Source: Isoetes taiwanensis (Eukaryota; Streptophyta; Lycopodiopsida; Isoetales; Isoetaceae). From it: DNA of 64,000 nt. Below are positions 1-64,000 of this stretch, piece by piece (positions within the stretch are counted from its first letter, which is position 1; the number at the start of each line of letters is the position of its first letter). The notes beneath the pieces are model-generated. The model saw only the letters and a list, made by a program, of their open reading frames with translations. It ran no database searches and was not told where the DNA came from. The position numbers were made by a program, and so were the translations under genes. Where the stretch lies: positions 62,001 through 126,000 of the forward strand of contig JAJEKV010000585.1 in NCBI GenBank assembly GCA_021234155.1, read 5' to 3'.

Positions 1-1040
1 AGTTAGATATGTATGATTAGGTTAAGATGTTCATATGATATTGTTCATGATGATTATGGGATGATGGTTGATCATGTTTGTTCCTCTTGTGTTGGGAAGG
101 GGGTAGAGACCTAGGGCCATATGTAGTATGTTCCTAGTATAGATCCCTTTAGTTCCTATTAGATTGCGGGCCCTGTGCATAGGAACCCACCGTGCTATGG
201 AGGCTATGATGTGACTCAAAGACTACACAACGGGCTAGAGGCAATATGGAGGGAGGATCCCCGCCGAAAGGGGGACTACTTGGGATCCCATAGTGGGCTA
301 GGCTTATGGCCGGCCACTGCGGTGGGCCGGCATGGGTCCGGACACCTCCCCGGGCTAAGGTGTTGCCCCCCGCCTCAAGAGTTGCAAGTGTCGGCTTGGC
401 TCTTGTTTTGGGGGTTCACGGGTACCTAATCGTGTCGCCACGATTCTCTAGCTGCCTGTGGAGCCTCTAGACCCCCGGAGGGGAGATGCAACCCTTCCTA
501 CCTCGACGGACTGTGGAGATGCAACCCGAGTAGTCCCGATGGGTGATGCCATGGGATTGCATATCCGAAGGTTAGAGTCATGCCAGAGCCTCGATCTAGC
601 CCATCCGCAAAGTATGCACAGTGAGGGGCGGATGGAGTGGTCAACCCTAGCCATTGTCTTATGCCAGCCCCGCCATTGTTATGACTCGGTCCGCTTCTAT
701 CTTGAGGCCTATCCAACACCGACTTCCTTATATGTCGATCCACTCGTGGGAGCTCTCACATTTTATGGTATGTGGCTATGTTCTTTTGCACCTTTGATAT
801 GTGATGGACTACCCTTCGAGGTAGTATTTGTATTGTTGATGCTAGTTCTCGACATGTTTATCGCCTCACTGTTATAGGAGCCCATAGGGAAGGGCGCCAA
901 GACACCTTCAGATCCCTCCCCGCACTAGGGTCACCCTAGAGCGGGGTAGACGGAGGGCCCTCTGGGCGGCCGCTGAGCCGATGGGGATTTCGCCGAGTGT
1001 AAGTACCGAAAGCCAGATATTTAGCAGTGGAGCTGCCACA
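1..1040 (+). repeat. 5' LTR, 3' two-thirds only
   Basis: Collinear with 12239-13285, starting at the shared AGTTAGATATGTATGATTAG. The two copies differ by substitutions and many one- to few-base indels, often in homopolymers. It ends GCTGCCACA at 1040, directly before the primer-binding site. The matching end of the 3' LTR is GCGTCACA, so the terminal inverted repeat has decayed here. Confidence 0.92.
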
Positions 1041-1041
1041 A

Positions 1042-1054
1042 TGGTATCGAGCCA
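1042..1054 (+). other. Primer-binding site, initiator tRNA-Met
   Basis: TGGTATCGAGCCA, one base short of the usual plant retrotransposon sequence TGGTATCAGAGCCA complementary to the 3' end of tRNA-iMet. It lies 1 bp after the LTR end, as expected for minus-strand priming. Confidence 0.88.
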
Positions 1055-1513
1055 TGTTCTTGGTTGACCAGAACTAGCACCCACCATAACCTTGAAAGTA
1101 GTCTAACAAGCTTATAGGGTGTGAAATAAAATTTCCACCATCGAACCCTCAAAATAAGGGAAAAATTTTTCTTAGGTAGTGGGTCCAAATTAGCTTAAGT
1201 GTTAGACTAAGAAATGAATCAGTTAATTCATCCTCTAGTAAATTGGTGTGGAAATTATGTACCGTGATCAAATTTCACATATAATGGGTCAAGAATCATG
1301 CCAACGGAGACCCGAAAGTGAAAAATGGCACTAATTCATAATTAGCACATCAAACCATTAGGAAATTCGAAAAAATTTAAAGTATAATACAAAATTAATA
1401 CAAAGTTAATATATACATTAATAATTAAATAATTACTAAATATGGTGTAATTAATAAGGGAGGCCATAATAAATAGGGTAATTATGGTGGGAGAATATTC
1501 CTAGGGACCCTCC
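1055..1513 (+). other. AT-rich leader, no gene seen
   Basis: About 460 bp between PBS and the H3-like transcription unit. It is A/T-rich with short runs and contains no recognisable coding motif. The first 30 bases resemble the sequence after the PBS at 58051-58100, so they are genuine element leader. The remainder may be the upstream region of the captured gene. Confidence 0.5.
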
Positions 1514-1570
1514 TTTTAAATATCTCGACACCTCATTCCCTCTCTCCAACCCTTCACCTTCACCTCTCTC
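1514..1570 (+). promoter_or_regulatory. Candidate core promoter and CT-rich leader of the H3-like gene
   Basis: TTTTAAATAT at 1514-1523 is followed by a pyrimidine-rich stretch (CCTCATTCCCTCTCTCC...) up to about 1570, then the ATG at 1612. A weak TATA-like box with a CT-rich 5' UTR is a common plant layout. It would allow expression independent of the LTR. This is inference from composition only. Confidence 0.35.
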
Positions 1571-1611
1571 TTGATCAGCCTTTACGCCACCCATTTCTTG
1601 AACCACAAGAC

Positions 1612-2693
1612 ATGGCACGCACCAAGCAAACCCACAGGAAGCCTCGGCCCTAGGCCCACCTCTCCATGGCGCAAAGCCAGGGCGGCATGTCAAGAAGGTC
1701 CCCGAACACCTTCGGCCGGGCCAGCGACGAGGAGTTCCCTAGCAAAGAAGAAGAAGAAGCCACCGTGAGCTTCCATGATGCCGAGGAGAGCCCCCAGCAG
1801 CAGCTGGCCATCGAGGCACGCAGAGAACGGATGAATCTCGCCACTTCGGGCCTCGGACACCGAGGTGGAAGAACAAAGTTGAAGAACAGTGGAAGAGCAA
1901 AGACCACCACCAAACCGAGGAAGCGGGCCCTTCCTAAGTGCCCAAGAAGAAGGGTAAGGAAAAGGTCTGGAGTGGCCGGAGGAGAGGGCCGCCAGAAGAA
2001 GAGGGAGCGGGAAAGGGAGCTCAGCAAAGAAGAGCGAGGATAAAAGAGAAGAAACGACCGACCTCGCCAAACTGGCCGTTATTGAAGAGCCCTGTAGAGG
2101 AGGAAGTGCAAGAGGAGGGTATGAGAAGAGGAGGAGGAGCCGCAGCAGGATCCCGGAGGCGAGACCACCCTACCCTAAGTGGCCGGAGCCACCTAAGGTG
2201 GTGAAGAAGCAAAAGGTAGGGGAGGGCATTCAAGGCCCCGACAGACCGCGAAGTTTAAGCGAAGATGGCGGGCATACAAGGAGTACCTCCGCCGCTGGAC
2301 GCAGGTACAACGATTGGTATTGCCGGGCCAAGAGGTGTAATGGGGGCCGCGGAGGGCGGCAGTCAAGAAAAATCAGCCAAGCCACCCCACCTAGACCGGA
2401 AAACCCAAAAGGGTTCACCACGGCCTAACAAATGGTACGCCCGGTGTTTAGGGAGATCAAGCACTTCCAAATGTGCACAAATCTCCTCATAAGGAAGGCG
2501 CCTTCGAGCGCCTCCTTAGGGAAGTCATGCAGAGTTCCCGACCATTATAGGATCACTCCTCTAACGCCCCGGCCCCGCAAGAGGTCGCCCGAAGCAGAGC
2601 TGGTGCAGCTCTTTGAGGAAGGAAATTTCGTGCCATCCATGCTAAGAGAGTCACCCTTATATGCTAAAGGACATTCAAAGCCCTAGGCCCTAA
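1612..2693 (+). pseudogene. Histone H3-like gene (H3 tail plus H3 histone fold) carried inside the retrotransposon
   Basis: ATG 1612 opens MARTKQTHRKPRP and then a TAG at 1651. The first ten residues match the universal H3 tail (ARTKQTARKS) except A7 to H, keeping K4 and K9. The same frame resumes after the stop with a long, highly charged Lys/Arg/Glu-rich segment (about 1666-2040). At the far end an H3 fold is readable in shifting frames: KWY (2430s) before the alpha-N helix, FREIKHFQMCTNLLIRKAP at 2447-2503 (canonical LREIRRYQKSTELLIRKLP), EAELVQLFEEGNF at 2591-2629 (canonical EAYLVGLFEDTNL), AIHAKRVTL at 2632-2658 (identical to H3 up to the last residue), then KDIQ and a stop at 2691-2693. 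Breaks: TAG 1651, a missing T in the LPF-equivalent, a missing G before AIHAKR, and a 1-2 base change before KDIQ. The tail-to-fold distance of about 270 codons is far longer than canonical H3 (about 40) or typical plant CENH3. It could be a divergent H3/CENH3 variant, a captured and decayed host gene, or an intact gene damaged by assembly error. The H3 identity is secure; function is unknown. Confidence 0.85.
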
Positions 2694-3370
2694 TTTTGTA
2701 AATTTTGTTAGAAAGTTTAAATTTTCATGTACTATGTTTTCTTATTAATATAAAAGTATTTCCCTCCTGTAATTAGAAAAATGTTGTATGCTTGAAATTT
2801 AGGAAATAGAACACAATTGTAGTAGAATTCTTCATAGCACCCTCGAAATATCCTAGAAATCATGACTACAACAAAATTTTGGCAAAAAATCATCAAAAAA
2901 GCAAAATTTGGGCCCAACCGGTGAGATCAAGGCTTAAACGCTGTCCTCTGTGTTCATGACGCTGGGAGGCCATCCGCAAGGACTCACCCGACCGCCCCCA
3001 AAAACATGCTTTTAGATGTCGGGTTTTGCTCAAAATAAGTTGCTAGTTAGCTTAGAATCGCCCAATTAGCCATGTTAGCATTTGAAATTCCCAAAATGAC
3101 CAAAAATTGGCCCAAAATAGGCCAACCGGTGGTGAGAGCCCAAACGCTGTCAAGGTTTCACGACGCCGGAGGCCATCCACGCGGACTCACCCGGTCAGCC
3201 CATTTTTGACCCAAATTAGCCAAATCGACCAAACAAACCGCCATGTAGTGTTGTTTGCTTTGCTTTGCTTAAACTTGCACTTCATGGTAGCTCAATTGGA
3301 CACCCGTGAGTCAGAGAACCAAGGTCTTCCCCATCTAGGAACCTTTTGCATTTAATCCCGAGGTCAACCA
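2694..3370 (+). other. Non-coding spacer with a diverged direct repeat
   Basis: AT-rich sequence follows the H3 stop, like a 3' UTR. Two related segments of about 90 bp, 2909-2999 and 3120-3200, share the order CCAACCGGT...GAG...AAACGCTGTC...GACGC...GGAGGCCATCC...GGACTCACCCG. They lie just upstream of the TATA box at 3376. No coding sequence is seen. Confidence 0.5.
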
Positions 3371-3375
3371 TAGTC

Positions 3376-3384
3376 TATAAAAGG
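3376..3384 (+). promoter_or_regulatory. TATA box of a second internal transcription unit
   Basis: CTATAAAAGGGCCTC is a near-ideal plant TATA box. It is followed by a pyrimidine-rich leader (about 3395-3490) and an ATG at 3494. Its position well downstream of the LTR and upstream of gag suggests a captured promoter rather than the element's own. Confidence 0.5.
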
Positions 3385-3391
3385 GCCTCAT

Positions 3392-5035
3392 TTGTCATTT
3401 TCCCTTCCACGTAATCGCTCCCAACCACTTAGGCGATTTTCTAACTCCTCACCGATCCTTGCAAGTCATTTTTTCGTGACCCTTCCTTGCTCAATGGCTT
3501 CAAGAACTTTGAGAGATGGTACAATGTCAGTAAGCCATATCCATCAGCTCCCCACTGACCAAGCCTCTCTCAGGTTTGACCACTTGTTTGATCTTCATGC
3601 AACTTTGTCTAGAACACCATACTATACGATATCATGTGCCAATATGACCAACAGGTCCTACCTTGGAAAGTTAGACTACCCCCTAGGGGAGGGAATTGGG
3701 TTTCTCTTGAGACACTCACCCAAGCCTTAGGTCGAGAGATGGCAGGATCCAAAGGCAAGAAGCAGCTATGGGATAGGACTAGGACCATGCCAGATTACAT
3801 GACCTGCAGACATAATAGGCATAGGTACCTTTCAGCTCGCACAGCCCTTGCCCCTTCATGCATTATAAGTCAATCAACAAAGTAGGGGAACCTTCCGCTC
3901 AGCCCTTAGACTTAGCTCCACTTGATACCCGAGGGCCCCGTGATCAAATCCTGAATATAGAGTCCTCCTCCCTTAACGAATACTATGGCACGACGCCAGG
4001 GGCACCATCTCTGCAGATCCATGAAGACTACGAGCAGCTAGGGGAGCAAAACCCAGAGTGGGAGAGCAGAGAGGCGACAAGAATGCAGAGGTACATGTCG
4101 AGGCATGACGACGACATCAGAAGAGCCACCGAGCCACCGGTCTAAGATCATACTGTCGCCGATAGTCATCGACTTCGGAGAGGAGTACATTCTAGCAAGT
4201 GACATCCTCAACTTGTCATACCGCCAGAACAGTGGACTTCGAATCGACGAGCTTCTAGGCATGATAGCACATGGAAAAAAAGCACGGACCTCATCGACTA
4301 TTCATACCGTGAGATTCCAAGGAGCCGGGCGGAGAGACATTCTTATGTGGGGAGACAATGTCCGACATATAGGGCCTATCGCCAGATAAAGGAAATCTAT
4401 CGACAGCAGGAACCCCGCCATTTCGCAGGAGGAGTTCTAGCAGATACAGAGCACATAATACAAACGGGGTGGAGGGGCCCAAGCCTCAAGCCAAAACGGT
4501 TTGAGCCAGAGCATGAGGGAAGGGTCCAAGAGCATCAACTTGGACAATGCAACCAAAGATGTGGAGAGACCATGAAGACCTTATGGCAAGAGATGCCTAT
4601 GACTGGAGCTGCTCAAAGGAAAGGCACGGATCACGAGGCACGTAAGGGTATGGCACTACGCTACTATCTTCCAGCCCTCACCAAGGGCAAATGGTAGTCT
4701 TCCACAAGGAGTTCAGTCCAAGGGGAAGAATCGCTGGCACTTCTCATAGCACTTCTCGGGCTTCGGCAAAGATTCAAGATATACCATGAAGATCACGCCA
4801 TCCTTTTCAAGAGGTCAGAAGGCTTCCATTGCCTCGACTTCGCTTAGGGGCCACCTCGGGGATGCATCACTTTCGTAGTAGCAAAAGAATCGCACTCTTA
4901 ACTCCCGGAACCAGAAATGGCGCGAGCACTCGAGGGAAGATCGACAAGGAACATCCTGCGCAACCTCGGCAAAGGCCTCCGATTCAGAGATGTGAAGAAT
5001 TTCTTTAGGCTTTCAGGAGGCCATTGATCAGCTAT
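3392..5035 (+). pseudogene. Unidentified decayed coding region between H3-like gene and gag
   Basis: Open stretches in changing frames suggest one former reading frame. They are 3494-3730 (begins MASRTLRDGTMSVSHIHQLP), 3634-3885 (with WKVRLPPRGGNWVS and a basic segment), 3858-4145 (acidic, LDLAPLDTRGPRDQ...), 4105-4389 (SPIVIDFGEEYILASDILNL) and 4347-4697. I do not recognise a family. It has a TATA box upstream and an AT-rich tail at about 5035-5090, so it looks like a second gene unit rather than gag; gag with its own zinc knuckle starts later. It could be an element-specific ORF1, a captured host gene, or an older insertion. Confidence 0.35.
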
Positions 5036-5092
5036 AAGATTTCCTTTTAAGTTTTAAATTGTATTGAGTAATCTCTTTGATATTATCATGTA

Positions 5093-5130
<38 letters not shown>
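5093..5130. repeat. (ATAG)n microsatellite
   Basis: About nine uninterrupted ATAG/GATA units, lying in the AT-rich gap between the second cargo region and gag. Confidence 0.97.
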
Positions 5131-5312
5131 GTACTTCTATATATTAATGACTTAGTATCATCTTGACTTGTAAGTGGAAATTTCACATGATTTCTTTTGT
5201 ATCTAACAATGAATTAATTGTAAACGGATATAATTGATATGTAAAACAAATAACAAGCATTGATGATCAATCCTTGCGTGAGAAGGAACACCGCTCAGTT
5301 CCCAAGGCCGTA

Positions 5313-6560
5313 ATGACAAAGATCGCGGATACCAAGGAACCTATTCTGGACGCGGATCAGGATGACAACAACGAGGAAATGACAGGGAGGCAATCAACGC
5401 AAAGGCTGGTACAGATGAGGAATCGATGCATCGGCTGATCCATTGGGCCACCCCATTGATGAATGCCCAAGAATATGCACTCGCACCACCTCCACCTCCA
5501 CCACTACCTCAAAGAAGGCATTGAGGAAGGTCCACAGCCAGGAGGGGCAAGACAACCAGGGGAAATGTCAGAGACAGGAAGAGGAAAAGGAAAAACAGAA
5601 GATCTCCAACACCACCTAGCTCTAGCTCATCAGACACTTCAGACCATGACAGTTCTAGCTCAGAAAGTGAGTCCGACACTCCACAGGTAAGAGCCAGGGC
5701 AAGGAAGGAAGATGATTATCAAAAGAAAGTTGACAGCGCTATGAGCAATGTGTGGAAGACTAGGAAGTTGGGTCAGTTCTCAGGGAAGGACAGATCAGGT
5801 ATGGAGGCAGAAGCCTGGCTTGACGAGATGGAAGAGTTCGGCAACTCTTATGGCATGAAGGATAAGGACATAGGGGAAAGTTGCTACAAAGAAACTTGAT
5901 AGGAGCAGCTAGAATCTGGGTGGAAAGGGTATGCTAAGTCTAACAAGCTCAAAAGGAACGGGCCAGTACTTGATTCAAGACCTTCAAAGAAGGCTTTTTT
6001 CGCAGACATTATGTGCCTAGGTCACATACTAGCAAAAGGTAGATCCAACAGTTCTATAGATTGAACCAGGGTACATTGTCAGTTGCAAAGTATACAGAGG
6101 AATTTATGCGACTTAGACTCCATGTTCCCCGAGTGTCGAAAAAGGCAAGCGGCCGAGACTTACATTGAGGGATTGAACAAGAATATCAAAAGGCTAGTCC
6201 GAGCAATCAACCCTAAGTCAAGGGCGGCCGAGGATAAAGCCATAAGTTTGAAGAAGCTCCAAAGAACGCTGTGTGAGAGACAATCGGCCTTCAAAGGAAG
6301 GTCAACGGGACAGTACCAAGGGCAGCAACAGAGTAAGCAATCAGCAACCACGCCATCAGGAGGCCAGCAGCAAGGGAGAGCTCAAGGTAAGAACTTTGGG
6401 GACCGTAAGCTGCAGAATGCATCAGGGGGCAGCGTGTTAAAGCGTATTCTAGACAGCCTGACGAAAGAGAAGAGACAGGAATGTATTGAGAAGAAGCTTT
6501 GTTTCGTGTGCTTCCACCAGGGCACCAACCCATGATTGCCCATTCGGCCATGCGCAGCCT
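5313..6560 (+). pseudogene. gag: gag (capsid/nucleocapsid) of the chromovirus, frameshifted
   Basis: The likely start is ATG 5313 (MTKIADTKEPILDADQDDNN). A proline- and serine-rich segment follows (about 5465-5690), then a retrotransposon-gag capsid-like region (AEAWLDEMEEFGNSYG around 5810-5860; 6083-6300 rich in Arg/Lys), a Gln-rich linker (QYQGQQQ, about 6315-6400) and a CCHC-like zinc knuckle starting LCFVCFHQG at about 6499-6530 that is completed in another frame. At least three frame changes and one stop interrupt it. Gag packages element RNA into particles in the cytoplasm. The family assignment rests on position before protease/RT and on the knuckle. Confidence 0.72.
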
Positions 6561-7199: not shown

Positions 7200-8070
7200 C
7201 CGGTAGCTAGGCTTATTTCAGAATTCAAGGATGTATTTCGGATGAGATCCGCAGCTACCACCTTATAGGGGTGTGGAGTGTGAGATCACATTAGCACGGA
7301 TGCTAAGCCTACCAAAGCAAAGGCACCATACGGGATGAGCACACCGAGGTTGATTGAGCTCAAGAAGCAACTCCGTGAATTGCTTGAGCTGGGTTTTATT
7401 AGAGCAAGTGTGTCTCCTTTTGAGCACCCATACTCTTCGTGGAAGAAGAAAGATGGCGTTTAAGAATGTGCATAGACTATCGCCAAACTCAACAAGCGGG
7501 TGACGATAAAGAACAAGTATGCTTTGCCAAGGGCAGATGATTTAATGGACCAGCTCCAAGGAGCAAAGGTATTCTCCAAGATTGATTTGAGGTCAGGGTA
7601 CCACCAAATAAGAATAAAAGAAGAGGATATCCATAAGACCGCCTTCAGAACGCGGTATGGTCACTTTGAGTTTACAGTAATGCCCTTTGGATTGTCGAAC
7701 GCTCCAGCAACTTTTATGCGCCTCATGAACGACGTCTTCAGGGATTTTCTAGATGAGTTTGTCATTGTTTTCTTCGACGACATTCTAGTCTACAGCAAGT
7801 CCATGGAAGATCATGATCAGCATTTGAGGAAAGTCTTGGAGAAGCTGAGACGCCATCGATTGTATGGCAAGCTCTCCAAATGCCACTTTGCTACCGAAAG
7901 AGTGGAGTACTTGGGCCATGTCATATCGGCGGAAGGAATCTCCACCGACCCCTAAAGATCGAAGCGGTAGTAGATTGGCCAGCTCCAAAGAATGTGGCGG
8001 AAGTAAGAAGCTTTCTAGGCAGCGGGGTTATTATTACGAGAAAGTTCGCGGAAGGACTTCGCTAAGTGGG
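7200..8070 (+). pseudogene. pol: Reverse transcriptase, Ty3/gypsy chromovirus type
   Basis: The longest open part is 7500-7955. Motifs visible in order: RMCIDYR (7460s, another frame), [34 protein letters not shown] (7570s), [34 protein letters not shown], catalytic [11 protein letters not shown] at about 7770-7800, and [10 protein letters not shown]. The YxDD-box equivalent FFDD is typical of chromoviruses. The frame is lost at 7955 by a one-base shortening of a C run (GACCCCTAAAG), and 5' of 7500 by a small indel. RT copies element RNA to cDNA in particles. Confidence 0.92.
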
Positions 8071-8105: not shown

Positions 8106-8600
8106 GTGAAAGATTGGAGAACACATTGGTTAGAAAATGTTCAAGCTTCATTTGAAAAGCTTAAGGAGGCCTTAACAACAGCACCAGTGCTAGTTCTGCC
8201 AGATCCAGACAAGGACAAGATAGTAGCAACAGATGCAAGCAAGATAGCAACAGGTGGAGTCCTTATGCAAGAAGGAAGGGTAATAGCTTATGATTCCAAG
8301 AAGTTGAACGACACCGAAAGCAAGCAGCTTATCCAACCCATGATCGGGAACTTCTAGCGATTGTCGGGGCTCTTCGTGATTTGGAGGCATTATTTGCTTG
8401 GGAGGAAGTTTCAGGTTAGATACCCGATCACCGAGCCTCCAATACATTTTACCCAACCACTCTGAATCCGAGGCAAAGGAGGTGGATGGAATTCCTAGAA
8501 GAGTATGACTTTGAGATTGCTTATAAGCCGTAAGTCGAATGTGGTCGCCGATGCTCTTTTCTAGAAGACCTCTTGAAACCGTAATTCATTGTAATGCTTT
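8106..8600 (+). pseudogene. pol: RNase H domain of pol
   Basis: The open segment 8106-8357 contains FEKLKEALTTAPVLVLPD, then ATDASKIATGGVLMQ (first catalytic Asp) and RVIAYDSKKLNDTESK (Glu region). Downstream frames show LLAIVGALRDWRHYL and VVADAL, the last matching the C-terminal N.VADALSR motif. It degrades the RNA strand of RNA:DNA hybrids. It is collinear with the RT and broken by small indels. Confidence 0.85.
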
Positions 8601-10560
8601 ATCAACTCTTTTTTGGTATGTCAAGAGAGAATTGAGGAGACTTTACCATCTCGATGGTGATTTCAAGGAGGTATGGGAAAGCCTTTCTAGAGAGGCTAGA
8701 AACAGATAAGGAACGAGAAGCCTTCAAGCATTATAAGAAGGAAGGCAACTTGTTGTATCATAAGCATAAGTTGTGTGTGCCCTAAATCATGGGGTAAGGA
8801 AGCTAATCCTCCATGACACACACAACAGCCCAATAGAGGGGCATGCGGGGTTTATGAAGACCTACTTCAAGATTCAAGTAGCTACGCCGGCCAAGGATAG
8901 GTTCCCATGCGTTATGAAACTATTTTTTCGGGACGTATAAAGTGAAAAATACGTATTTTTGGGAAAAATACGTATTTTTGTATTAATACTCGCCGGCGGT
9001 AGGAAAAAAAAGTTCCGGCGTGTGAAACCTGTTCGATTTCACCTTGAACTTTCTTCGGCGTGGCGAAGTCTAAGTTTTAAACTACGCGAGATCCCCTCAC
9101 CCGACACCGGCGTAAAAGCGAAGCCTTAATGTTAAACTTCGCTGCGGGAAACTCTTTTCGGCGTAAAGAGAAATATAAAAGGTTAAACTTAAGCGTTTTT
9201 GTTGGCGTAAGCATTCTTTGCGTTTAAACTTACCTTGAAGGCGGTTAAAATGGCGGCCAGTTTTAAACTGGCGAAGTTTTCTATATATATTTGGTGGCGT
9301 TAAAACTACGAAGTTATTTGTTTAAACTTCTGTGAAGATGTTTTCGCGTAAAGCGAAAGCGGTTCATTTAAACTACCTTGAAACTATTTCTAGTTGGCGT
9401 AGCGAAAATCTTGTTTAAACTACGAACCCGGACCGGCGTAAAGCCCGAAGCGGTTATTTTAAACTGCAGCGAAAGTTTTCGACGCCGGAAATTTTTAGCC
9501 GTATTTTTTGACGTATTAAGCGTCAAATTTGTGCCGTATCAAGCGAAAAAAAATACATATTGCGATAAAAACGTATCTGATATTGAACCTATCCTTGCTT
9601 CGGCCGGAATGAAGAAGCAGATAGCAAGATATATTCGCGAAAGTGTCGGTTGTGCCAGCAAACCAAAGCGAGCAGCTTCGAATCCAGGTGCCTTGGAACC
9701 TCTAGCAGTCTTAGAATGCGAAGTGGGAAGTGGTAAGTATGGATTTTATCACGGGACTCCCCAAGACTCTTGAGGCAAGGATGCATTGATGGTCGTAGTA
9801 GACAAATTATCTAAGATGGCACATTTTGTGCCTTGTAGAACTTTGACACAACATTAGATCTTGCCAAGCTATTTGTGAAGGAGATTTTTTAGGCTCCATG
9901 GCATGCCTCGGGGAGATAATATCGATAGAGATTCCAAGTTTATGAGTGCTTTTGGCGGGATCTCTTCAAGACCATCTCACACTGAAGCTCTCCATGAGCA
10001 CGCCTTATCCCCAAACGGATGGTCGGGGCGGAGAGGACTTAATCGAATCATTGAAGATATGCTTAGAAGCTTTGTGTGGAATAAGCAGTCCAAGTGGGAG
10101 GAGTACATCCACTTGGTGGAATTCGCCTACAATAGTGCCAAACGGAGTCATCTCGGATGTCTCCTTTCATGGTAAATTACGTTACTTGGGTCTTAACCCG
10201 GGACACTTGGCACAATCCCGTGTCAAAGGTTGAGGTGTCCCAACAAATGCTAGGAGATATGCGTGAGTTGGTGGAAGAGGTGAGGGGTTACCTCCTAGCA
10301 GCAAGAAGTCGGGCAGAAGAGTGTAGCCGACAAGCAATGGGACAAGTAAGAGAGTTCAAAGTAGGCTTATGGCGTGTGGTTGAAGATCAAGGTCAAGCAA
10401 GCTAAGCGGATTGGGAGTTGCAAGAAGCTTGCCCCTAGGTGGGCTGGTCCGTTGAAGATTTTGGAGAGAGTGGGCTCCCAAGCCTACAAGTTGGATCTTA
10501 GGCCCATCTCAAAGTTCACAAGGTTTTCCACGTAAGTTTATTAAAAGGCACAATCCTAAC
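8600..10560 (+). pseudogene. pol: Integrase (zinc finger, catalytic core, C-terminal domain), interrupted by a foreign insert
   Basis: The H2C2 finger is split. HDTHNSPIEGHAGFMKTYFK-like codons lie at about 8812-8870, and MKKQIARYIRESVGC follows at 9610-9655, with unrelated repetitive DNA between (about 8890-9590). The core reads KLSKMAHFVPCRT (about 9800-9840), DRDSKFMSAF (9930-9950, second Asp) and LNRIIEDMLRSFVWNKQSKWEEYIHLVEFAYNSA at 10040-10140 (with the catalytic Glu region). The C-terminal part has GPLKILERVGSQAY (10445-10490). Multiple frame changes. It would insert the cDNA into chromatin if intact. Confidence 0.85.
8890..9590. repeat. Inserted block of degenerate ~45-bp TTTAAACT repeats with palindromic left end
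   Basis: Sequence unlike the flanking pol gene. Two perfect 16-bp palindromes AAAAATACGTATTTTT occur at 8945-8960 and 8964-8979. They are followed by roughly ten copies of a core (G/T)TTTAAACT(A/T)C spaced about 40-57 bp (near 9075, 9132, 9181, 9221, 9261, 9299, 9320, 9366, 9412, 9455), separated by GGCGTAAAGCGAAG-like words. The right side also has CGTATTTTTTGACGTATTAAG. It separates the two halves of the integrase zinc finger. No coding motif is seen. Confidence 0.7.
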
Positions 10561-10790
10561 CCCGAGGAGGTTTTGGATACTCCAACTTTGTTGGAAATGA
10601 CGGAAGAGCAAGTGGAAATCGTGCTGAAGTTACTTCTTGATAAGTCATTCAAGAAGACTAGGAGGTCTCAGTTCCTCGGTATTTGGTTAAGTGGAAACAC
10701 TTGCCAGTGGAAGACGCGACGTGGGTATTAAAGCAAGATTTGGAGAAGCAATACCCGAGTTCATGAAGGAGTTTGATGGGCTTAGTCGTC
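10560..10790 (+). pseudogene. C-terminal chromodomain of the integrase
   Basis: EEVLDTPTLLEMTEEQVEIV leads into LLDKSFKKTRRSQFL (about 10630-10675), then, one frame over, YLVKWKHLPVEDATWVLKQD (10678-10737) and an acidic end. The spacing (L.D.R...R.....YLVKWK..P.EDATWE) is the chromodomain pattern of plant chromoviruses, which steers integration to chromatin marks. The break is one base at a CTCGG run. The typical first aromatic cage residue is not clear, as in group II chromodomains. Confidence 0.85.
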
Positions 10791-11636: not shown

Positions 11637-11648
11637 AAGGGGGAAGAA
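11637..11648 (+). other. Polypurine tract
   Basis: AAGGGGGAAGAA immediately precedes the TGTGACG start of the 3' LTR. It is the plus-strand primer position of LTR retrotransposons. Confidence 0.85.
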
Positions 11649-13285
11649 TGTGACGTTAGGGGGAATATACGCTATATATACGTATATTCCTGGACCCGTC
11701 ACCATACAAGTCTACCTGGGTAGCCTTGTATGCATTGGGAAGTGGCAAGGGGTGCACATCTAAGTTAATTGTTTAACTTAGATAACCTTAGGATAAGACC
11801 CATTTCCACATGGCCTTATCCTATTGGGCAACCGCCACACGGCCTCATCCTAGTGGTGCCACGTGGCATCCCATGTGGACCCACACCTATATTAGCTCTA
11901 ACCCTAACCCTAGACCTTTTTCCCTGACCTAGCACCTAAACCCCCATCCACGCGCCCGAAACTCCGTTTCGAGCACCGTTCGTCGTAGCCTAGCCTGGAG
12001 CAGCAGCCCCTGGAAGGTGTGTATGATCGTAGAGGGAGCAAGTCTTCGAGCCACGTCAAGGAGCATGGAGACGCCAGGGATGGGAGGAAGCGCCGTGGAG
12101 GAGGTAGGTTGAGTAGAGTCCATGTCAGTTCATCTGGGAGTTAGCAATCCAGATGGGTTAGTATTTCGTAGCTAGAGTAGAGCCACCCTAGATCCTTTGT
12201 TGAACATCTTGAGACCTAATCAATGAACCCTAACTAATAGTTAGATATGTATGATTAGGTTAAGATGTTCATATGATATTGTTCATGATGATTATGGGAT
12301 GATGGTTGATCATGTTTGTTCCTCTTGTGTTGGGAAGGGGGGTAGAGACCTAGGGCCATATGTAGTATGTTCCTAGTATAGATCCCTTAGTTCCTATTAG
12401 ATTGCGGCCTGTGCATAGGAACCCACCAGGCTATGGAGGCTATGATGTGACCCAGCACTACACAACGGGGCTAGAGGCAATATGGAGGGAGGATCCCTGC
12501 CGAGTGGGGACTCTGAGGGGGATCCCATAGTGGGCTAGGCTTATGGCGGTCACCGTGTGGGCGAGGCATGGGTCCCAAACACCTCCCGGGCGAAGGTGTT
12601 GCCCTGCCTCTCAAGAGTTGCAAGTGTCGGCTTGGCTCTTGTTTTGGGGGGGTTCGGGTGCAATCGCGTGTGTCGTCACGATTCTCTAGCTGCCCGTGGA
12701 GCCTCTAGACCCCGGGAAGGGGAGATGCAACCCTTCCTACCTCGACGGACCAGGGAGATGCAACCTGGAGTAGTCCCGATGGGTGATGCCATGGGATTGC
12801 GTATCCGGAAGGTTAGAGTCATGCCAGAGCCTGATCTAGCCCATCTGCAAAGTATGCACAGGAGGGGCGGATGGAGTGGTCAACCCTAGCCATTGTCTTA
12901 TGCCAGCCCCGCCATTGTTATGACTCGGTCTGCTCTATCTTGAGGCCTATCCAGTCAGTCGACTTCCTTATGTGTCAGATCCACGGGTAGGAGCTCTCAC
13001 GTTTTATGGTATGTGGCTATGTTCTTTGCACCTTTGGATATGTGATGGACTACCCTTCGAGGTAGTATTTGTATTGTTGATGCTAGTTCTGACATGTTTA
13101 TCGCTTCCGCTGTTATAGGAGCCCATAGGGGAAGGGCGCGCCAAGACACCTTCGTGTCCCCTCCCCGCACTAGGGTCACCCTAGAGTGCGGGGTAGACGG
13201 AGGGCCTGTGCGGCTGTTGAGCCGGATGGGGGATTTCCTGCCGAGAGTACGGCCGAGCGCCGTATATTTAGCAGGGAGCGTCACA
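11649..13285 (+). repeat. Complete 3' LTR (about 1.64 kb)
   Basis: Bounded by the inverted termini TGTGACG and CGTCACA. The last 1047 bp duplicate window positions 1-1040. It contains a short telomere-like run CTAACCCTAACCCTAG (11898-11913). Related LTR ends occur at 57528-58049 (+) and 63493-64000 (-). Confidence 0.93.
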
Positions 13286-13929
13286 GGTGAAGATTGGAGG
13301 TCAAGATGGGTTGGATAAAAGTGGTGCAACAAAAAGGAGAGTAGTATTAAACACCGTCAATTCATTCTTGAGGCAAACAAAAACAATGAATCTCCAGATT
13401 AAACGGGAAATATTGATTGATGTACTAGAACATAAAGCTATGGAAGAGATAGTTGGGGATCTCTTGAAGAATATGGAAGCAAAAACAACCATAATAGATA
13501 ATATCAGAGATTCAATCCATATCATGAAGCCATCAACTAGTCTAGATTGTATGGCTGCTAAAAAATCTTGTTTAGCAATGGCAATAGGCAATGAAGTAAA
13601 AAGCACTCTATGAAGTTCTTGATGTTCATCCAAGAAATTTGATGCTGCAAAGAGAGACAAATTTGAGATAAATTGCAATTCAGGAAAATGGGTGTACTAT
13701 AGAAGGGGAAGAAGATGTGATTCCATTTCTGATTCATCATTGCTCTTGTACGTGTTTTTTGGATTTCTAATACTAGGGTCTCTCCAAACACAAAGGATGT
13801 GAAATCTAGGAGACTTGAAAGAAATATCGAGAAGAGCATGCTACACATTACTTAGAGCAAAGCCAAGTTAGTTACTACTCTATTATCTATCTACTCTTTC
13901 AAGCTTGATTTGATCCGGGTTTTCTCTAG

Positions 13930-18326: not shown

Positions 18327-19142
18327 TTATACTAGACACAACCTGTGGTGTAAAACATCGGTTTGAATAGTGTAACCAATTTCAGATGGCAAAGCATCTT
18401 CCTCCATGATGATTTTAGCAAACATACAAATATACAATCCACATGAATAACCATTTGATTGGAGAGGATGAGGGCTAAGATGGCACCACCGCAAATTCTC
18501 TTTGAATTGGGCTGCTCGTGGGGAAAGCTTGGCCAAAGCTTCTATTAGCCTGTTATAAGAGAGGAAAGTCAATTCCTACATAATCAAAATAAGTTTACAT
18601 TTGAATTCACAAATTGACCACTTACCTGCTTATAGGGGTCCAATCATACCTTTGACAACCAAGGCTATCAAAGTGCAATATAATTGGATAAGTGTAATTG
18701 CTAGGGGCTAAAAGACCCAATATCACAGCTGCAGTCCAATGATTCCTATGGCACATAGGAATAATCAAACATGCACAATGGTCCATATCCAATCCCAGCA
18801 ACAATTTGGATATAACAAGTTCTTTTTTTATTTTTATATATCCATATGTTAGTGCATGACATATGTATACTTGTTTTCTTCGTTCCTCATCCAAATGTAG
18901 CCACTCATTTCTAAGCAAAATACACCATGCTATAAAGAGGTCACAACAGAAAGTACAATCCTAGGTATGCAACAATTTACCTCATGAACAGATCAATGAT
19001 CGTATTATTAAGCCATCGTGTCTCATTGTCCAGAATGTCTACTTCTGTGCTCATTATAGTGATTGGGTTGGATTCGGCGCAATACACCATGGGTAGAAAG
19101 TTGTCGAGCAATTCTACTAGGGATCTGCTCCTCTTCCTCAAT
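18327..19142 (-). CDS. Ulp1-type cysteine protease domain (peptidase family C48), three exons
   Basis: Exons on -: 19142-18981, 18910-18626 and 18550-18327, separated by introns of 70 and 75 bp with GTAAAT...TAG and GTAAGT...CAG borders that keep one frame. Exon 1 gives RLRKRSRSLVELLDNFLPMV...LFMR. Exon 2 holds NHWTAAVI (catalytic His) and LHFDSLG (catalytic Asp). Exon 3 holds PLQSNGYSCGLYICMF (oxyanion Gln and catalytic Cys) and ends at a stop. All four catalytic positions of SUMO/NEDD8 proteases are present, and there are no stops inside the exons, unlike its neighbours. No convincing ATG precedes exon 1; an acceptor (TTAATAACAG) at 19143 implies upstream exons, possibly those of the phosphatase-like domain. 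Plant DNA transposons are known to carry Ulp1-like genes. It should remove SUMO or a related modifier; the substrate is unknown. Confidence 0.85.
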
Positions 19143-37975: not shown

Positions 37976-39430
37976 TATTCATCTTCGAACAATTTAACTA
38001 TCTATTCATCTTCGGACAATTTAACTAATATAAGACAATGATCGTGTTTTGGCTTTGGTACAAAATATCTAGCATAATAATAGGGGGTTTCTTTAGTATT
38101 TTTATGCATTTTTTACTATGATTTTCATATGATTTGATAGCTGTATATTGTAAGACATCTAATGTGTATATCTAGAGTGTGCATACACTCATACAATTCT
38201 TTGTGCTATTTTGCAACGGTCTTACACGTGAAACATGCAATATTTATGTTTTTCCTGCTTTTATATTTCTCACAAATAATTTTATAATTTTTACTAGAAA
38301 AGGCCGCCCTTTTTTTAAGCTACCCCTCACCTTGGCCTCAGCCTTCAGCCGAGGCCTCGCCTCGGTTTGGACATCTTTGGTATTATTCCTACTCCTATAA
38401 TTCTAAAGTATCACCGTTAGGAGCTTACTCAACCTCGGCTCGGTCTTGGCCTTGGGCTGAAGCATTGCCTACCAATTGCAAAGTATCACCCATTGGAAGC
38501 TTACTCACACCTACTATCAATTCCAAAGTCTCACCCATTAGAAGTTGACTCACACCTATTGTACTCAACATTCAAGTATCAGCCATGAAGAGTTGACTCA
38601 CATCTCCTACCAATTTGAAAGTATAACATATGAGGAGCTGGCTCTTACCTACTACAATTTCAAAGTATCACCCATGTAGTGCTTATACACATCCACTACC
38701 AACACCTATCATTTCCAATGCATCATCCATTGGGAACTTACTCGCACCTACTACCAATTGGCAGCCGCACCCATTAGAAGCCGACTCACACCTACTGCCA
38801 AATCCAAAGCATCACACATGAGGAAAGCATCATCCACGTGGCTCAATGTCTATATCAATGTCATTGAACATCCATTTGACAATTCTAAAGAATCATCTAT
38901 TGAGGAGTCATACCTACTATGCATGGGGAGCTTACCCCTTCCAAAGCATTGCATATTTTGAAAACTTTCTATTCTTGGACTGAGCTTGCAAAGTCAAAAG
39001 CTTCTATTTTTAGACTGAGGTGCTGCCCATGAGCATTTGGAACATACCAGAACATTCTATTTTGACTTTTTGCAAAGTTTCAAAAAACTTTATGTTTTTA
39101 GACTGAGGGGCTTACCCATATGAGACTTTCTATTTTTGGACTATACTGCTTGTTCATGAGCATTTGAGCATGTAGAACATTCTACTTTGCCTCTTTGCAA
39201 TTTTTCAACAAACTTTCTATTTTCAGACGTAGGTGCTTATCTATGAGCATCTAGAATATTATAGAACTATCTAGAAGATCCTATTTTTTCTATTTTTGGA
39301 CCGAGGTGTCATTCCAGGACATTTTATTTTTGGAACGAGGTGCTTATACACATCTATTACCAACACTTATGAATTCCAATTTATCACCCATTGAGAGCTT
39401 ACTCACACCTACTATTAATTCCAAAGCCTC

Positions 39431-39935
39431 GAGTGTCAGCACTCTGCCCACTGTGCAAGCAAAGGGATGAGACCATTGAGCATTGTTTCTTTTTATATCG
39501 TCATCTCCAGCCTGTTTGGTCTTGGTTGCTTTCTCTTTTTCATGTGACATTGACAAGTCAGCAAGTGCTTCTGGCTATTTATCCGGATACTTGGAATAAG
39601 GTGCAGAGCCAAGCATTTCATTTGGCATTAGGATGGTTGTTGTGGTCCATCTGGAAGCGCAGAAGATTGTGTATCTTTCAGGGTTTTGGATATTCCTCCT
39701 GCAGTTGTCCTCCAGGACGCACAAGCTAGAATCCCTAAGGTCTACCATTGTTCTTCGCTTGCTCCTGCCAAGCGACAGTTGATATTTGAGTCCTATTTGA
39801 GTGTATTGTCTTATGCATAGGCTGGTGGTTCTACTCAGTGGATCATGATTATCCTTTCAGATTTTATTCTTGCCTCTGCATTTGTATCTGGCTTTTGGCT
39901 TGGTGTTTCAATAAAGTTTGTCGTTCTTCAAAAAA
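39431..39935 (+). mobile_element. 5'-truncated LINE with zf-RVT end and 13-bp target-site duplication
   Basis: Encodes CPLCKQRDETIEHCFFLYRH, the Cys/His zinc-binding end of plant LINE reverse transcriptases (zf-RVT), then LAIYPDTWNKVQ and LALGWLLWSIWKRR. It ends AATAAAGTTTGTCGTTCTTCAAAAAA. It is flanked by ATTCCAAAGCCTC at 39418-39430 and again at 39936-39948, which is type A repeat sequence, so it inserted into the array. The length and missing RT core show 5' truncation. Confidence 0.88.
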
Positions 39936-40160
39936 ATTCCAAAGCCTCATTAACTTAGTACCATTGACAATATACCTACTACCAATTCTAGAGTATCACC
40001 CATGAGGAGCTTACTCCCATCTACTACCATTTCCAAATTGTTGCCTATTGAAAACTTTCTATTATTGGACCGAGCTTGCAAAGTTTCAAACCATTCTATC
40101 TTTAGACTGAGGGTATGAGCATATAAAACATTTTAGAACATTGCTTACTTGGCGCATCTG

Positions 40161-40275
40161 GAACATTCTAGAACATTCTACTTTGACTCTTTATATTCAA
40201 AAAAAACTTTCTATTTTTAGACTGAGGTGCTTATCCATGACCATCTAGATCATTCCAGAACATTCTAGAAAATTC
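40161..40275. promoter_or_regulatory. Heat-shock-element-like motifs in the type B repeat, cluster 1
   Basis: GAACATTCTAGAACATTC (40161-40178) is four perfect alternating nGAAn/nTTCn units. TTCCAGAACATTCTAGAA followed by AATTC (40253-40275) is five. Canonical heat-shock-factor sites need three. Whether they act as promoters or enhancers is unknown. Confidence 0.55.
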
Positions 40276-40334
40276 TAGATACTTTCAAAAACACTTTTTA
40301 TTTTTAGGCTGAGGTGCTTATCCATGATCATCTA

Positions 40335-40352
40335 GAACATTCTAGAACATTC
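40335..40352. promoter_or_regulatory. Heat-shock-element-like motif, cluster 2
   Basis: GAACATTCTAGAACATTC, four perfect units, same position in the type B repeat as the previous copy. Confidence 0.55.
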
Positions 40353-40733
40353 TATTTTTGGTTGTTTGCAAAGTTTCAAAAAAACTGCTATTTTTAGACT
40401 GAAGTGCTTACCCATGAGCATTCTAGGATATTCTATTTTGAGTGTTTATACAGTTTCAAAAAAATTACTATTTTTAAACTGAGGTGTTTACCCAGGAGCA
40501 TTTTAAACATTCTAGAACATTCTATTTTGAGTGTGTGCAAAGTTTAAAAAAACTTTCTATTTTTAGACTGAGATGCTTACAAAGTTTAAAAAACTTGCTA
40601 TTTTTAGACTGAGGTGCTTAGCCATGAGCATCTGGAATATTTTAGAACATTCTATTTTGAGTGTTTACAAAGGTTCGAAAAAATTAATATTTTTAGACTG
40701 AGGTGATTGCCCATGAGAATCTGGAAAAATCCA

Positions 40734-40751
40734 GAACATTCTAGAAGATTC
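40734..40751. promoter_or_regulatory. Heat-shock-element-like motif, cluster 3
   Basis: GAACATTCTAGAAGATTC, four perfect units, near the end of the B block before the SINE. Confidence 0.5.
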
Positions 40752-40840
40752 TAGAGCTACCTAGAATACTAGAGCATTCTTGAATTGATCAACTTTCACC
40801 CTTAACTATATGTGAATCTCTAGCTATTTTAGCAAACTAA

Positions 40841-41030
40841 TGCTTGGCATAGTGGTAAGTAGAGGGGATTTGGGAGGCAAGAAGCAGGGTTCAAATCCTT
40901 TATGCTACATCAAACTTTTAAAAGCCCTCCACTGAAATGCAGGGAGGACATGGAGGGCCGAGATCACGCCACGTGGCGCCTCCTTTACTGTCGATGGGGG
41001 TTTACCTCAGTTTAGAAAAAGCAGACACCC
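40841..41030 (+). repeat. tRNA-derived SINE copy 1
   Basis: A-box-like TGGCATAGTGG (40845-40855) and B-box GGTTCAAATCC (40888-40898), about 33 bp apart, are followed by an unrelated body (AAAGCCCTCCACTGAAATGCAGGGAGGACA...CGCCACGTGGCGCCTCC) shared with copy 2. It is a pol III type retrotransposed element, too diverged for a functional tRNA. Confidence 0.7.
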
Positions 41031-41976
41031 ATATACTCCTATAATTCCAAAGTATCACCCGTTAGGAGCTTACTCAACCTCATCTCGGGCTCGGCCTTAG
41101 GCCGAGGCCTCGCCTCGGTCATACACACCTACTACCAATTGCAAAGTATCACCCATTGGTAGCTTACTCACACCTATTACTAATTCCAAAGTATCGCCCA
41201 ATGGGAACTTACTCACACCTCCTATCCATTCTAAAGTTTCACCCATTAGAAGTTGACTCACACCTACTGTACTCAACATTCATTTGTCAATCTACAAGGA
41301 GCTTACTGTGACTTACCACCAATTCCAAAGTATCACCCCTGAAGAGTTGACTCACACCTACTAACAATTTGAAAGTATCACGCATGAGACGCTAACTCAT
41401 ACCTACTACAATTTCAATGTATCACCCGTGTAGAGCTTATATACACCTACTACCAATACCTATCAATTCCAAAGTATCATCCATTGGGAGCTATTCACAC
41501 CTACTATCAATTCCAAAGTTGCACCCATTAGAAGCAGACTCACACCTACTGATACCTACTACAATTTCAAAGTATCCTCCATTTAGGGCTTATACATATC
41601 TACTACCAACACTTCTCAATTCCAAAGTATCATACATTGTCAGCTTACTCACATTTGGTGTCAATTCCAAAGTGGAAACTTTCTATTCTTGGACTACGCT
41701 TGCACACCTAGTACCAATTCCAAAGCATCATACATGAGGAAAGCATCACCCATGTGGTCCAACATCCAATACTACCAATTCTAACCTTAGCATTTTGTAA
41801 CGTTTCAAAAAACTTTCTATTTTTAGACTGAAGGTCTTACCCATGAGACTTTCTATTTTTGGACTGAGATGCGTGCTCATGAGCATCTAAGCATGTAAAA
41901 TATTTTACCTTGCCTCTTTGCAATTTTTCAACAAACTTTCTATTTTTAGACTGATGTGTTTACCCATGTGCGTCTG

Positions 41977-42124
41977 GAACATTCTAGAACATTCTATTTT
42001 GAATGTTTGTAAAGTTTTCAAGAAGCTTTCTATTTTTAGACTGAGGTGCTTATCCATGAAAGAAAACTTTCTATATTTAGACTGAAGTGCTTACCCTGAG
42101 TATCTTGAACATTCCAGAACATTC
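41977..42124. promoter_or_regulatory. Heat-shock-element-like motifs, cluster 4
   Basis: GAACATTCTAGAACATTC at 41977-41994 and GAACATTCCAGAACATTC at 42107-42124, each four perfect units, one repeat period apart. Confidence 0.55.
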
Positions 42125-42334
42125 TATTTTGCCTCCTTGCAAAGCTTCAAAAAAACTTTCGATTTTTAGATTGAGTTGCTTACCCATGAGTATCTCGAAC
42201 ATTCCAAAACATTCGCTTTTGGCTTCTTGCAAAGTTTCAAAAAAAACTTTCTATTTTTAGATTGAGGTGCTTACCATGAACCTCTACACCATTCCAAAAC
42301 ATTCTAGAAGATTAGAAGATTTTAGAGCTATCTA

Positions 42335-57527: not shown

Positions 57528-58049
57528 GGGAGATGCAACCCGGCAGTAGCCCTCTTGGCTACGTACCCGGCAAGCTACGGTCCGGTCCCAATACTTTTCA
57601 ACCTACTTTGCAAAGTGTGCACGGGAGGGGCATGGAGTGGACTACCCAACAACCATGTTCTTATGCCAGCCCAATTCATTGCCATGACTCGGTCTGCATT
57701 GACTTCTGGAGACCCCAACCGTCAGTCGATCCCCTATGAGTCTGAGCCCTGGGTAGGATCTTCCCTTGTTGATGATATTGATGTTGTTGTATATGCTATG
57801 TTATGATGTGTTCACCCTTCGAGGTGGACTTATTGATGTATTGATGTTATGTGCTCATGTTTGTTCACGCTTCCGCAGCTAGGACGGTCCCAAAGGAAGA
57901 CGGGCAAATGACCCATCCACTCTCCCCTCACTGGCCCAGTTCATGGGATTGGTGTCAGGTGGATGGCCCCTGCTAGTTTGGCTATCAGGGGGATGAACTC
58001 CGCCTTCGGATACGATGGGAGCATCATAGACGAAGTAGGGGACGTCACA
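57528..58049 (+). repeat. 3' portion of a chromovirus-family LTR
   Basis: Shares with the 1-1040 LTR the words GGAGATGCAACCC, CAAAGT.TGCAC.G.GAGGGGC.TGGAGTGG, TCTTATGCCAGCCC, ATGACTCGGTC and CTACCCTTCGAGGT-like wording. It ends GACGTCACA (terminal inverted repeat). Strongly diverged. Confidence 0.85.
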
Positions 58050-63492: not shown

Positions 63493-64000
63493 TGTGACGC
63501 TCCCAGAATATATACGACCCTCGGACGTATACATACGGGGACTTTCCCCTCCCATGGCGATCATCTCACCATGAGCAGGGCCCTCCGTCTATTTCGGGCC
63601 ATCTATGAAATGAGGCCCGAAGAAGGACACGAAGGGGTCATTCGGCCCACGCCTTCAATGGGACTCCTACGTCGCGGAAGCATGAATACAAGGGTTAGCA
63701 CACAGCACGAATATACATAAATAACCACCACGAAGGGTGGCGCATCCATCCAAAATACCAACGGCATAGAATATGCATCTAATCCTAAGAAAACACCCAA
63801 ACCCTGAGGTTCTACCGGCTCGGACTCCGTGGGGATCGTCGGTGACGGCCGGGCCTCAAGAGATCAGCCAGGACCGATTCTTGGCATGGCGTTGGTGGCA
63901 TAGAACATTGGCTAGGGTTGTCCACTCCATCCGCCCCTCCCGTGCACACTTTGCGGATGGGTCAATTCATGCTATGGCTTTGCTATAGCCTTCCCGGAGA
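63493..64000 (-). repeat. Chromovirus-family LTR, reverse orientation, cut by window end
   Basis: TGTGACGCTCCCAGAATATATACG is the reverse complement of the 3' LTR end (CGTATATTTAGCAGGGAGCGTCACA, with differences). CCACTCCATCCGCCCCTCCC and GCACACTTTGCGGATGGG follow in the expected reversed order. A third family member in the window. Confidence 0.88.

Follow-up and report, generated by a model that had tools for sequence, protein, structure and literature searches.

Core histones are seen as a property of the host, while chromoviruses are known for reading the marks on host chromatin. A first-pass annotation of a 64,000-nucleotide stretch of the Isoetes taiwanensis genome (the whole stretch is called the window below) had placed a histone H3-like gene between the PBS and gag of a chromovirus, which raises the question of whether a retroelement carries, and maintains, an H3 of its own.

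An H3-like gene within a chromovirus

A Ty3/gypsy chromovirus was found to occupy the window from its start to position 13285, with the TG..CA LTR ends, 5-bp TSD, tRNA PBS and polypurine tract of such elements. The window opens inside the 5' LTR, the 3' part of which lies at 1-1040 (+ strand) and which starts 597 nt upstream of the window, at C314:61404. The 3' LTR (TGTGACG...CGTCACA) was placed at 11649-13285 (+) by LTR comparison and from the sequence, and a repeat comparison within the window showed 89.9% identity between 1-1033 and 12239-13279. It is followed by the 3' copy of the TSD, GGTGA (13286-13290, +), whose 5' copy lies upstream of the window in L009, which is the window copy. The PBS (1042-1053, +), which we take to be of the tRNA-iMet type, reads TGGTATCAGAGCC in copies L011, L014 and L049 and is one base shorter in the window copy; the polypurine tract was read from the sequence at 11637-11648 (+).

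Within these boundaries, all on the + strand, lie ORF1, which is the histone H3-like gene (1612-2693); an ORF2 region (approximately 3495-5040) for a protein without assigned function, broken in the window copy and with a homologue in a sister-family copy; gag (5525-6535; Pfam Retrotrans_gag, 9.5e-17 in copy L014); reverse transcriptase (RT, 7476-7955; Pfam RVT_1, 9.6e-36); RNase H (8127-8324; Pfam RT_RNaseH_2, 5.1e-19); and the integrase core with a C-terminal chromodomain (9780-10780). The last is broken here and was assigned through copy L011, in which the integrase C-terminus matched Pfam Chromo (5.6e-11) and SH3_Tf2-1 (2.3e-23). The integrase also contains a 712-nt insertion (8886-9597), missing in all 15 fetched copies with a match spanning the site; a short tandem repeat of period 19 lies inside it at 8944-8980. 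Gag and the order PR-RT-RH-INT were found in the window family, with the protease there recognized by eye, and gag through RNase H, including protease, was found in a sister family. The RT showed 65-74% identity to the 120 relatives listed, the named ones being mostly from plants. With its LTRs, TSD and PBS and the domain matches to gag, RT and chromodomain, the locus has the chromovirus setting that had been proposed for it.

By eye, TATA-like stretches with pyrimidine-rich leaders were seen at 1500-1520 and 3370-3385, just 5' of ORF1 and ORF2, and each of these ORFs may possess its own promoter. Elsewhere in the window, pieces with 74-78% identity to the LTR of this element at 57609-57761 (+) and 63838-63994 (-) are relics of related families nearby, a weak Peptidase_C48 (Ulp1 protease-like) match at 18625-18960 (-; E 0.011, under the cut-off) perhaps marks another mobile element, and diverged tandem repeat blocks with units of ~45 and ~90 nt extend over 38390-42306. 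An Rfam search of the window gave no match.

The N-terminal part of ORF1 (1612-2431, +) comprises the H3 tail start MARTKQT.RK and a long Ser/Glu/Lys/Arg-rich linker; in the window copy, the ATG at 1612 opens MARTKQTHRKPRP and a stop follows. Some 0.8 kb 3' of this ATG, and again on the + strand, the H3-fold motifs follow in the correct order (2432-2693), and Pfam Histone matched this fold in L011 and L022. When canonical H3 was aligned to both strands of the window with frame changes tolerated, the best score was 198 at 2327-2687, the runner-up reaching 55, and the ATG 1612 site ranked third on the + strand with 51. The motifs and this alignment confirmed the annotated arrangement of an ATG with an H3 tail followed by an H3 fold on one strand. 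The single-frame ORF at 2429-2686 had 155 PDB matches up to E=10 (best E 0.0084), and among the 60 listed all were histones and all but one were H3 or an H3 variant; the same ORF alone had no Pfam match up to E=1. The joined ORF1 pieces matched H3s at 1.4e-31 to 9.3e-21 among the best 120 of 2158 protein matches; these 120 covered 18-41% of the query, mostly 19%, and none of the six that were inspected has the ORF1 tail in common with the query. A protein search with the fold alone matched 4 proteins.

The annotation stood as to the presence of an H3 gene, to which it must be added that the reading frame is interrupted in the window copy: the tail ends after 13 codons and the fold runs across three frames and a stop. 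Between the two LTRs of the window copy there are 57 substitutions (31 transitions and 26 transversions) along with 38 indel events, of which 30 involve a single nucleotide. Such an indel-rich pattern is unusual for natural LTR divergence, which suggests that part of the damage to the window copy may be assembly error. Among the copies fetched, only this one has both LTRs covered, and its LTR divergence gives no age because it mixes age with assembly error. According to the accessible text of the genome paper, the assembly rests on nanopore reads with racon and pilon polishing and totals 1658.30 Mb, distributed over 204 scaffolds and 909 further contigs (PMC8566536).

A weak AT-rich inverted repeat (1372-1403 / 2694-2725, 75% complementary), seen in the window copy, brackets ORF1 and is possibly a trace of the H3 gene's entry, or chance. 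A nested non-LTR carrier was rejected, the repeats over 1000-5400 being three inverted-repeat pairs of 14-32 nt, among which the pair around ORF1 is the longest.

The H3 gene in the window family and in sister families

The fold DNA was used as query against the genome (1,658,258,908 bases, 1110 contigs) and gave 637 loose candidates, of which 40 were scored; all 40 had E<=1.1e-79 and 88% identity or more (88-92% apart from the window itself). Twenty copies, including the window copy, were taken as 10-kb stretches and 20 as 1.6-kb stretches. The LTR and the H3 fold were found in the same order in all 20 of the 10-kb copies, which come from 19 contigs, in agreement with the position given to the gene between PBS (1042) and gag (5525). 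The match extended to gag in 18 of these 20; it was lost at el 2761 in L028 and at el 4367 in L023, and it stopped within gag in L027. L016 had no match for el 1034-1173, on the PBS side. Both L013 and L026 miss ~660 nt of the ORF1 linker, with nearly identical breakpoints, and they are perhaps a deletion derivative that is still multiplying.

These copies bear on whether the locus is an artefact, either a misassembly or a host H3 pseudogene that lies beside an LTR element or is nested within one. The assembly is noisy, as this reading would have it, but the recurrence of the LTR-H3 order on 19 contigs and the 5-bp TSD make it scarcely credible. One-off cargo was rejected along with misassembly on the 40 scored family matches and this order; copies lacking H3 with a clean site, the outcome named for a one-off insertion, were not seen among the 20, all of which carry H3.

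The profile search proposed by the annotation gave matches far beyond threshold, with Pfam Histone (PF00125) at 8.4e-30 and 1.3e-29 in two other copies (L011, L022), and the best PDB H3 match was 2.5e-31. In this error-prone assembly, 3 of the 40 copies (369, 370 and 375 aa) have an ORF1 without interruption between Met and fold, and in the other 37 it is not open throughout; the H3 ORF that the annotation proposed to look for in other family copies is present, and intact in just these three. Of the 40 copies, 22 have an open fold, in a scan that ended short of the broken fold of the window copy. An H3 start motif was found in 33 of 40 copies (30 MARTKQT, 2 MAHTKQT and 1 MARTKQI), and 5 of the 7 copies without it are short stretches that perhaps end before the start. 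Residues 8-9 are RK in 24 of 40, and S10 is absent in the copies read.

Searching the genome with canonical H3 gave 9022 loose candidates, of which 150 were scored. Fifteen showed 96-98% identity over all 136 residues and were taken as host H3 genes, and the other 135 showed 71-86% identity. Twenty of the 135, spread along the list, were picked by hand, and 600 nt at 4.4-5.0 kb downstream were translated. A same-strand PR-RT of the window lineage was found downstream of the H3 in 18 of the 20; of the two loci without this match, L051 was integrase-like by eye and L065 was not. In the 9 kb of the sister-family copy L049, ORF1 is open (409 aa from Met), ORF2 is open, and a gag-pol frame of 951 aa reaches into RNase H. 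Sister-family ORF1s matched PF00125 at 2e-40 and 4.6e-42. Those of L049, L070 and L072, and in pieces those of L073-L075, have an N-terminal module unlike the window-family linker, and the starts read were MAITK, MANTK and MATTK, of the pattern M-A-x-T-K; in L071 the module is diverged and the start is METVKQ. The module matched no Pfam family at E<=0.5 (L070, L071), and Foldseek with a sister ORF1 model gave no match at E<=0.001. Furthermore, the sister gag has a zinc-knuckle-like stretch (Pfam matches under the cut-off), and ORF2 was homologous across both groups in a single comparison (28% over 87 residues, E 1e-5).

When the RTs of 26 elements carrying H3 were placed in a tree together with 25 background RTs, all 26 fell into one clade (100/99.8), split into the window family (100/97) and the rest (97/95); branching order within the groups is unsure because several rows were pieced together across frames. 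The H3 tree showed the same two groups. The sister families (99/95) branch with host H3 bearing H87/L90 (95/82), presumably the plant H3.3 type, and the window family forms a long branch (100/100) of unsure place. The C-terminal residue is P, against A in host H3, in L049 and in 17 of L070-L087 (L085 changes frame), and a terminal P occurs in 20 of the 22 open window-family folds (L014 continues beyond P and L034 changes frame). The simplest reading would be a single capture predating the split of the two groups; two separate captures are possible because the H3 tree gives the window-family H3 no firm place. The elements were sampled through H3, and such a sample cannot give the share of relatives without H3. 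Relatives in other organisms were sought among proteins and viral contigs, sets that do not include plant genomic DNA; in the viral contigs no RT match was found, and a sister ORF1 query matched one distant histone (38% identity). Gypsy expansion has been reported in Isoetes, in the accessible text of the Isoetes sinensis paper (PMC10541799).

Selection on ORF1

We calculated dN/dS against one reference copy per region after removing gap-adjacent codons: L011 served for ORF1 and the control, L012 for RT-RH, and L014 for both ORF2 and gag. The results were 0.17 for ORF1 and 0.20 for its fold (39 copies each), 0.13 for gag (17 copies), 0.21 for RT-RH (16), 0.47 for ORF2 (18) and 0.61 for a non-coding (UTR) control (38). 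Pooled pairwise dN/dS was 0.18 for 20 of the 22 open folds, the two with local frame changes being excluded. In these 20 folds, singletons comprised 11 synonymous and 11 nonsynonymous changes, and shared changes 13 and 6, respectively. Shared changes, i.e., those present in at least two copies, gave nonsynonymous/synonymous site ratios of 0.29 for ORF1 (tail 0.28, fold 0.23), 0.18 for gag, 0.19 for RT-RH and 0.52 for ORF2, compared with 1.01 for the UTR control. For singletons the ratios were 1.00 for ORF1 (tail 1.04, fold 0.81), 0.73 for gag, 0.57 for RT-RH and 0.85 for ORF2; that of the UTR control, 0.52 (77 changes), was below expectation, and the control is therefore not a clean 1. The ORF1 pattern is that expected if selection works in the replicating lineage and ceases after insertion.

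Outside CpG-type contexts the values were 0.15 for ORF1, 0.15 for gag, 0.26 for RT, 0.32 for ORF2 and 0.36 for the non-coding control. CpG hypermutation was rejected as the source of the low ORF1 value, which persists outside these contexts, and this version separates less than the shared-change test because the control is also just 0.36. The sister fold showed a dN/dS of 0.031 at a pS of 0.49 (19 copies), and two host H3 genes showed 0.039. ORF2 occurs in both groups of the lineage (L014, L049) under weaker constraint (0.47-0.52) than ORF1. The 5' UTR (1100-1498) has 27 mismatches per kb between copies and the ORF1 tail 111-125, mostly synonymous (38-39 copies); subfamily recombination or UTR constraint is possible for this low UTR divergence.

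Judged from these substitutions, ORF1 is under purifying selection, like gag and RT, as the annotation had asked of the H3 ORF in other family copies; mere capture of a host gene, one of the options that it raised, understates the case given this selection. A host H3 captured by chance and now decaying as cargo would account for the broken window copy, and in P. fijiensis, a fungus, every hAT-borne H3 copy except the original is inactivated, according to the accessible text (PMC6710886). We nevertheless reject it as very improbable on the ORF1 dN/dS, the shared-change ratio against that of the UTR, the sister-fold dN/dS and the presence of the gene across one RT clade. This signal stands unless it was created by choosing the copies for their likeness to H3: copies were picked by fold similarity, which lowers fold divergence, and the tail ratio should not fall by that alone. 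Altogether, the H3 of this lineage is, as far as sequence comparison can tell, an old, selected gene, present in two sister groups of families.

Possible roles and known systems

Seventeen DNA-contact and H3-H3 bundle positions, which we chose as known H3 sites, were unchanged (17/17) in each of three families, with one representative per family. The window-family representative and host H3 have different residues at 29 of 86 positions, and the chance of 17 unchanged is 0.00035 assuming random positions; DNA-contact and H3-H3 positions are generally conserved in H3s. The window family has K56 and K79 changed and positions 87-90 wholly different, the latter being tied to the assembly route of H3 in the accessible text of a review of viral histones (PMC9145170). 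AlphaFold models of two ORF1 proteins were poor (mean pLDDT 52.0 and 58.7), and their helix layout alone fits a histone fold. CENH3 is marked by a longer loop 1. This was absent from the fold, which aligned to H3 gap-free (MAFFT alignment and 86-column set), and a CENH3 identity is unsupported, with a tree that had no true CENH3 row. The proposed bias toward centromeres is unsupported, given this gap-free fold and the position of the sister fold next to H87/L90-type host H3.

We regard a lineage-borne, selected H3 that acts as an element-encoded nucleosomal variant as the probable explanation. The protein would most likely be nucleosome-forming, and we infer a use to the element. A Ty3/gypsy chromovirus lineage would have taken up a host H3 gene long ago and retained it as the first internal ORF, before ORF2, gag and pol. 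The element H3 would pair with host H4 and enter host-type nucleosomes as an H3 variant, the host octamer being the likeliest partner because the constraint matches that of host H3. On those nucleosomes it would display its N-terminal extension, which is ARTKQT.RK plus linker in the window family and, in the sister families, another module followed by a coiled coil. The benefit, of which we are less sure, might lie in the chromatin formed on newly made element DNA or at its targets, which could, for example, resist silencing or provide a landing mark for the element's own chromodomain integrase.

The same tail and fold could serve a protein that does its work away from nucleosomes, tying up H3 chaperones, methyltransferases or tail readers and so weakening the silencing of the element. 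Such a decoy would fit the H3 start motif in most window-family copies, the RK at 8-9 and the diverged positions 87-90, and viral histone mimicry has been described (PMC10208167, accessible text). However, neither the DNA-contact arginines nor the H3-H3 interface would have to be preserved in a decoy, whereas all 17 positions are kept, and the sister families have little tail start but a more constrained fold, which leaves this role unlikely. Another role would be structural, the histone fold with host H4 packing or escorting element cDNA in the particle or pre-integration complex. ORF1 precedes the other genes of the element, as a structural gene might, its evolution resembles that of gag, and giant viruses organise DNA by histones of their own (PMC9145170, PMC12297534, accessible text); against this, the sister gag has its own zinc-knuckle-like stretch, and a fold as constrained as that of host H3 points to the host octamer as its partner. 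We consider this role improbable.

If the element H3 is a nucleosomal variant, a doubtful extension is that the element runs its own signal loop, in which the H3 tail or module marks nucleosomes on element DNA or at targets and the element's own integrase chromodomain reads them, which would put carrier and reader of the mark both under the element's control. The marks might, just as tentatively, be the tail start (K4, with RK at 8-9 as well in window-family copies) or the N-terminal module. As part of this doubtful extension, element-encoded H3 may be abundant enough to form a real part of host chromatin. As described in the accessible text on MAGGY, its chromodomain reads H3K9 methylation (PMC3350952).

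A retroelement lineage that maintains an H3 of its own would be a mobile source of histone variants. It would give genomic parasites a new means of influencing chromatin and hosts a route to gain histone variants, and histone evolution under selection would be traceable in many diverged copies. A literature search found no retroelement with a histone gene, with poor coverage of subscription papers, and novelty is unproven. The word 'histone' is absent from the main text of the Isoetes taiwanensis genome paper (PMC8566536) and from the Isoetes sinensis paper (PMC10541799), and the main text of the viral-histone review (PMC9145170) has no word starting with 'retro'.

Among the closest known systems are H3L in hAT DNA transposons of Pyrenophora (PMC3538342) and hAT-borne H3 in Pseudocercospora (PMC6710886), which, in the accessible texts, are likewise transposable elements with an H3-like gene in many copies. 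Those carriers are TIR DNA transposons, whereas the carrier here is an LTR retroelement, and its H3 is old, selected and joined to other N-terminal modules in sister families, whereas the accessible text on the fungal H3 reports no selection over element evolution. Single viral histones, such as bracovirus H4 and xenomavirus H3, are thought to enter host nucleosomes and resemble ORF1 in being captured core histones with a conserved fold and an extended or divergent N-terminal tail, but their carriers are DNA viruses or descendants of these, and not a retroelement (PMC9145170, accessible text). CENH3/CENP-A is also an H3 variant with a divergent tail; the fold here differs from it in being gap-free against H3. 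Plant chromoviruses share with this element the LTRs, a tRNA-Met type PBS, gag, PR-RT-RH-INT and the chromodomain, whereas the H3-fold ORF1 and ORF2 between PBS and gag are extra here, and the RTs form their own clade against 25 background RTs. Finally, MAGGY and similar elements have the integrase chromodomain in common with this element, but MAGGY, in the text accessible, reads the H3 of its host (PMC3350952), whereas the element described here brings its own H3.
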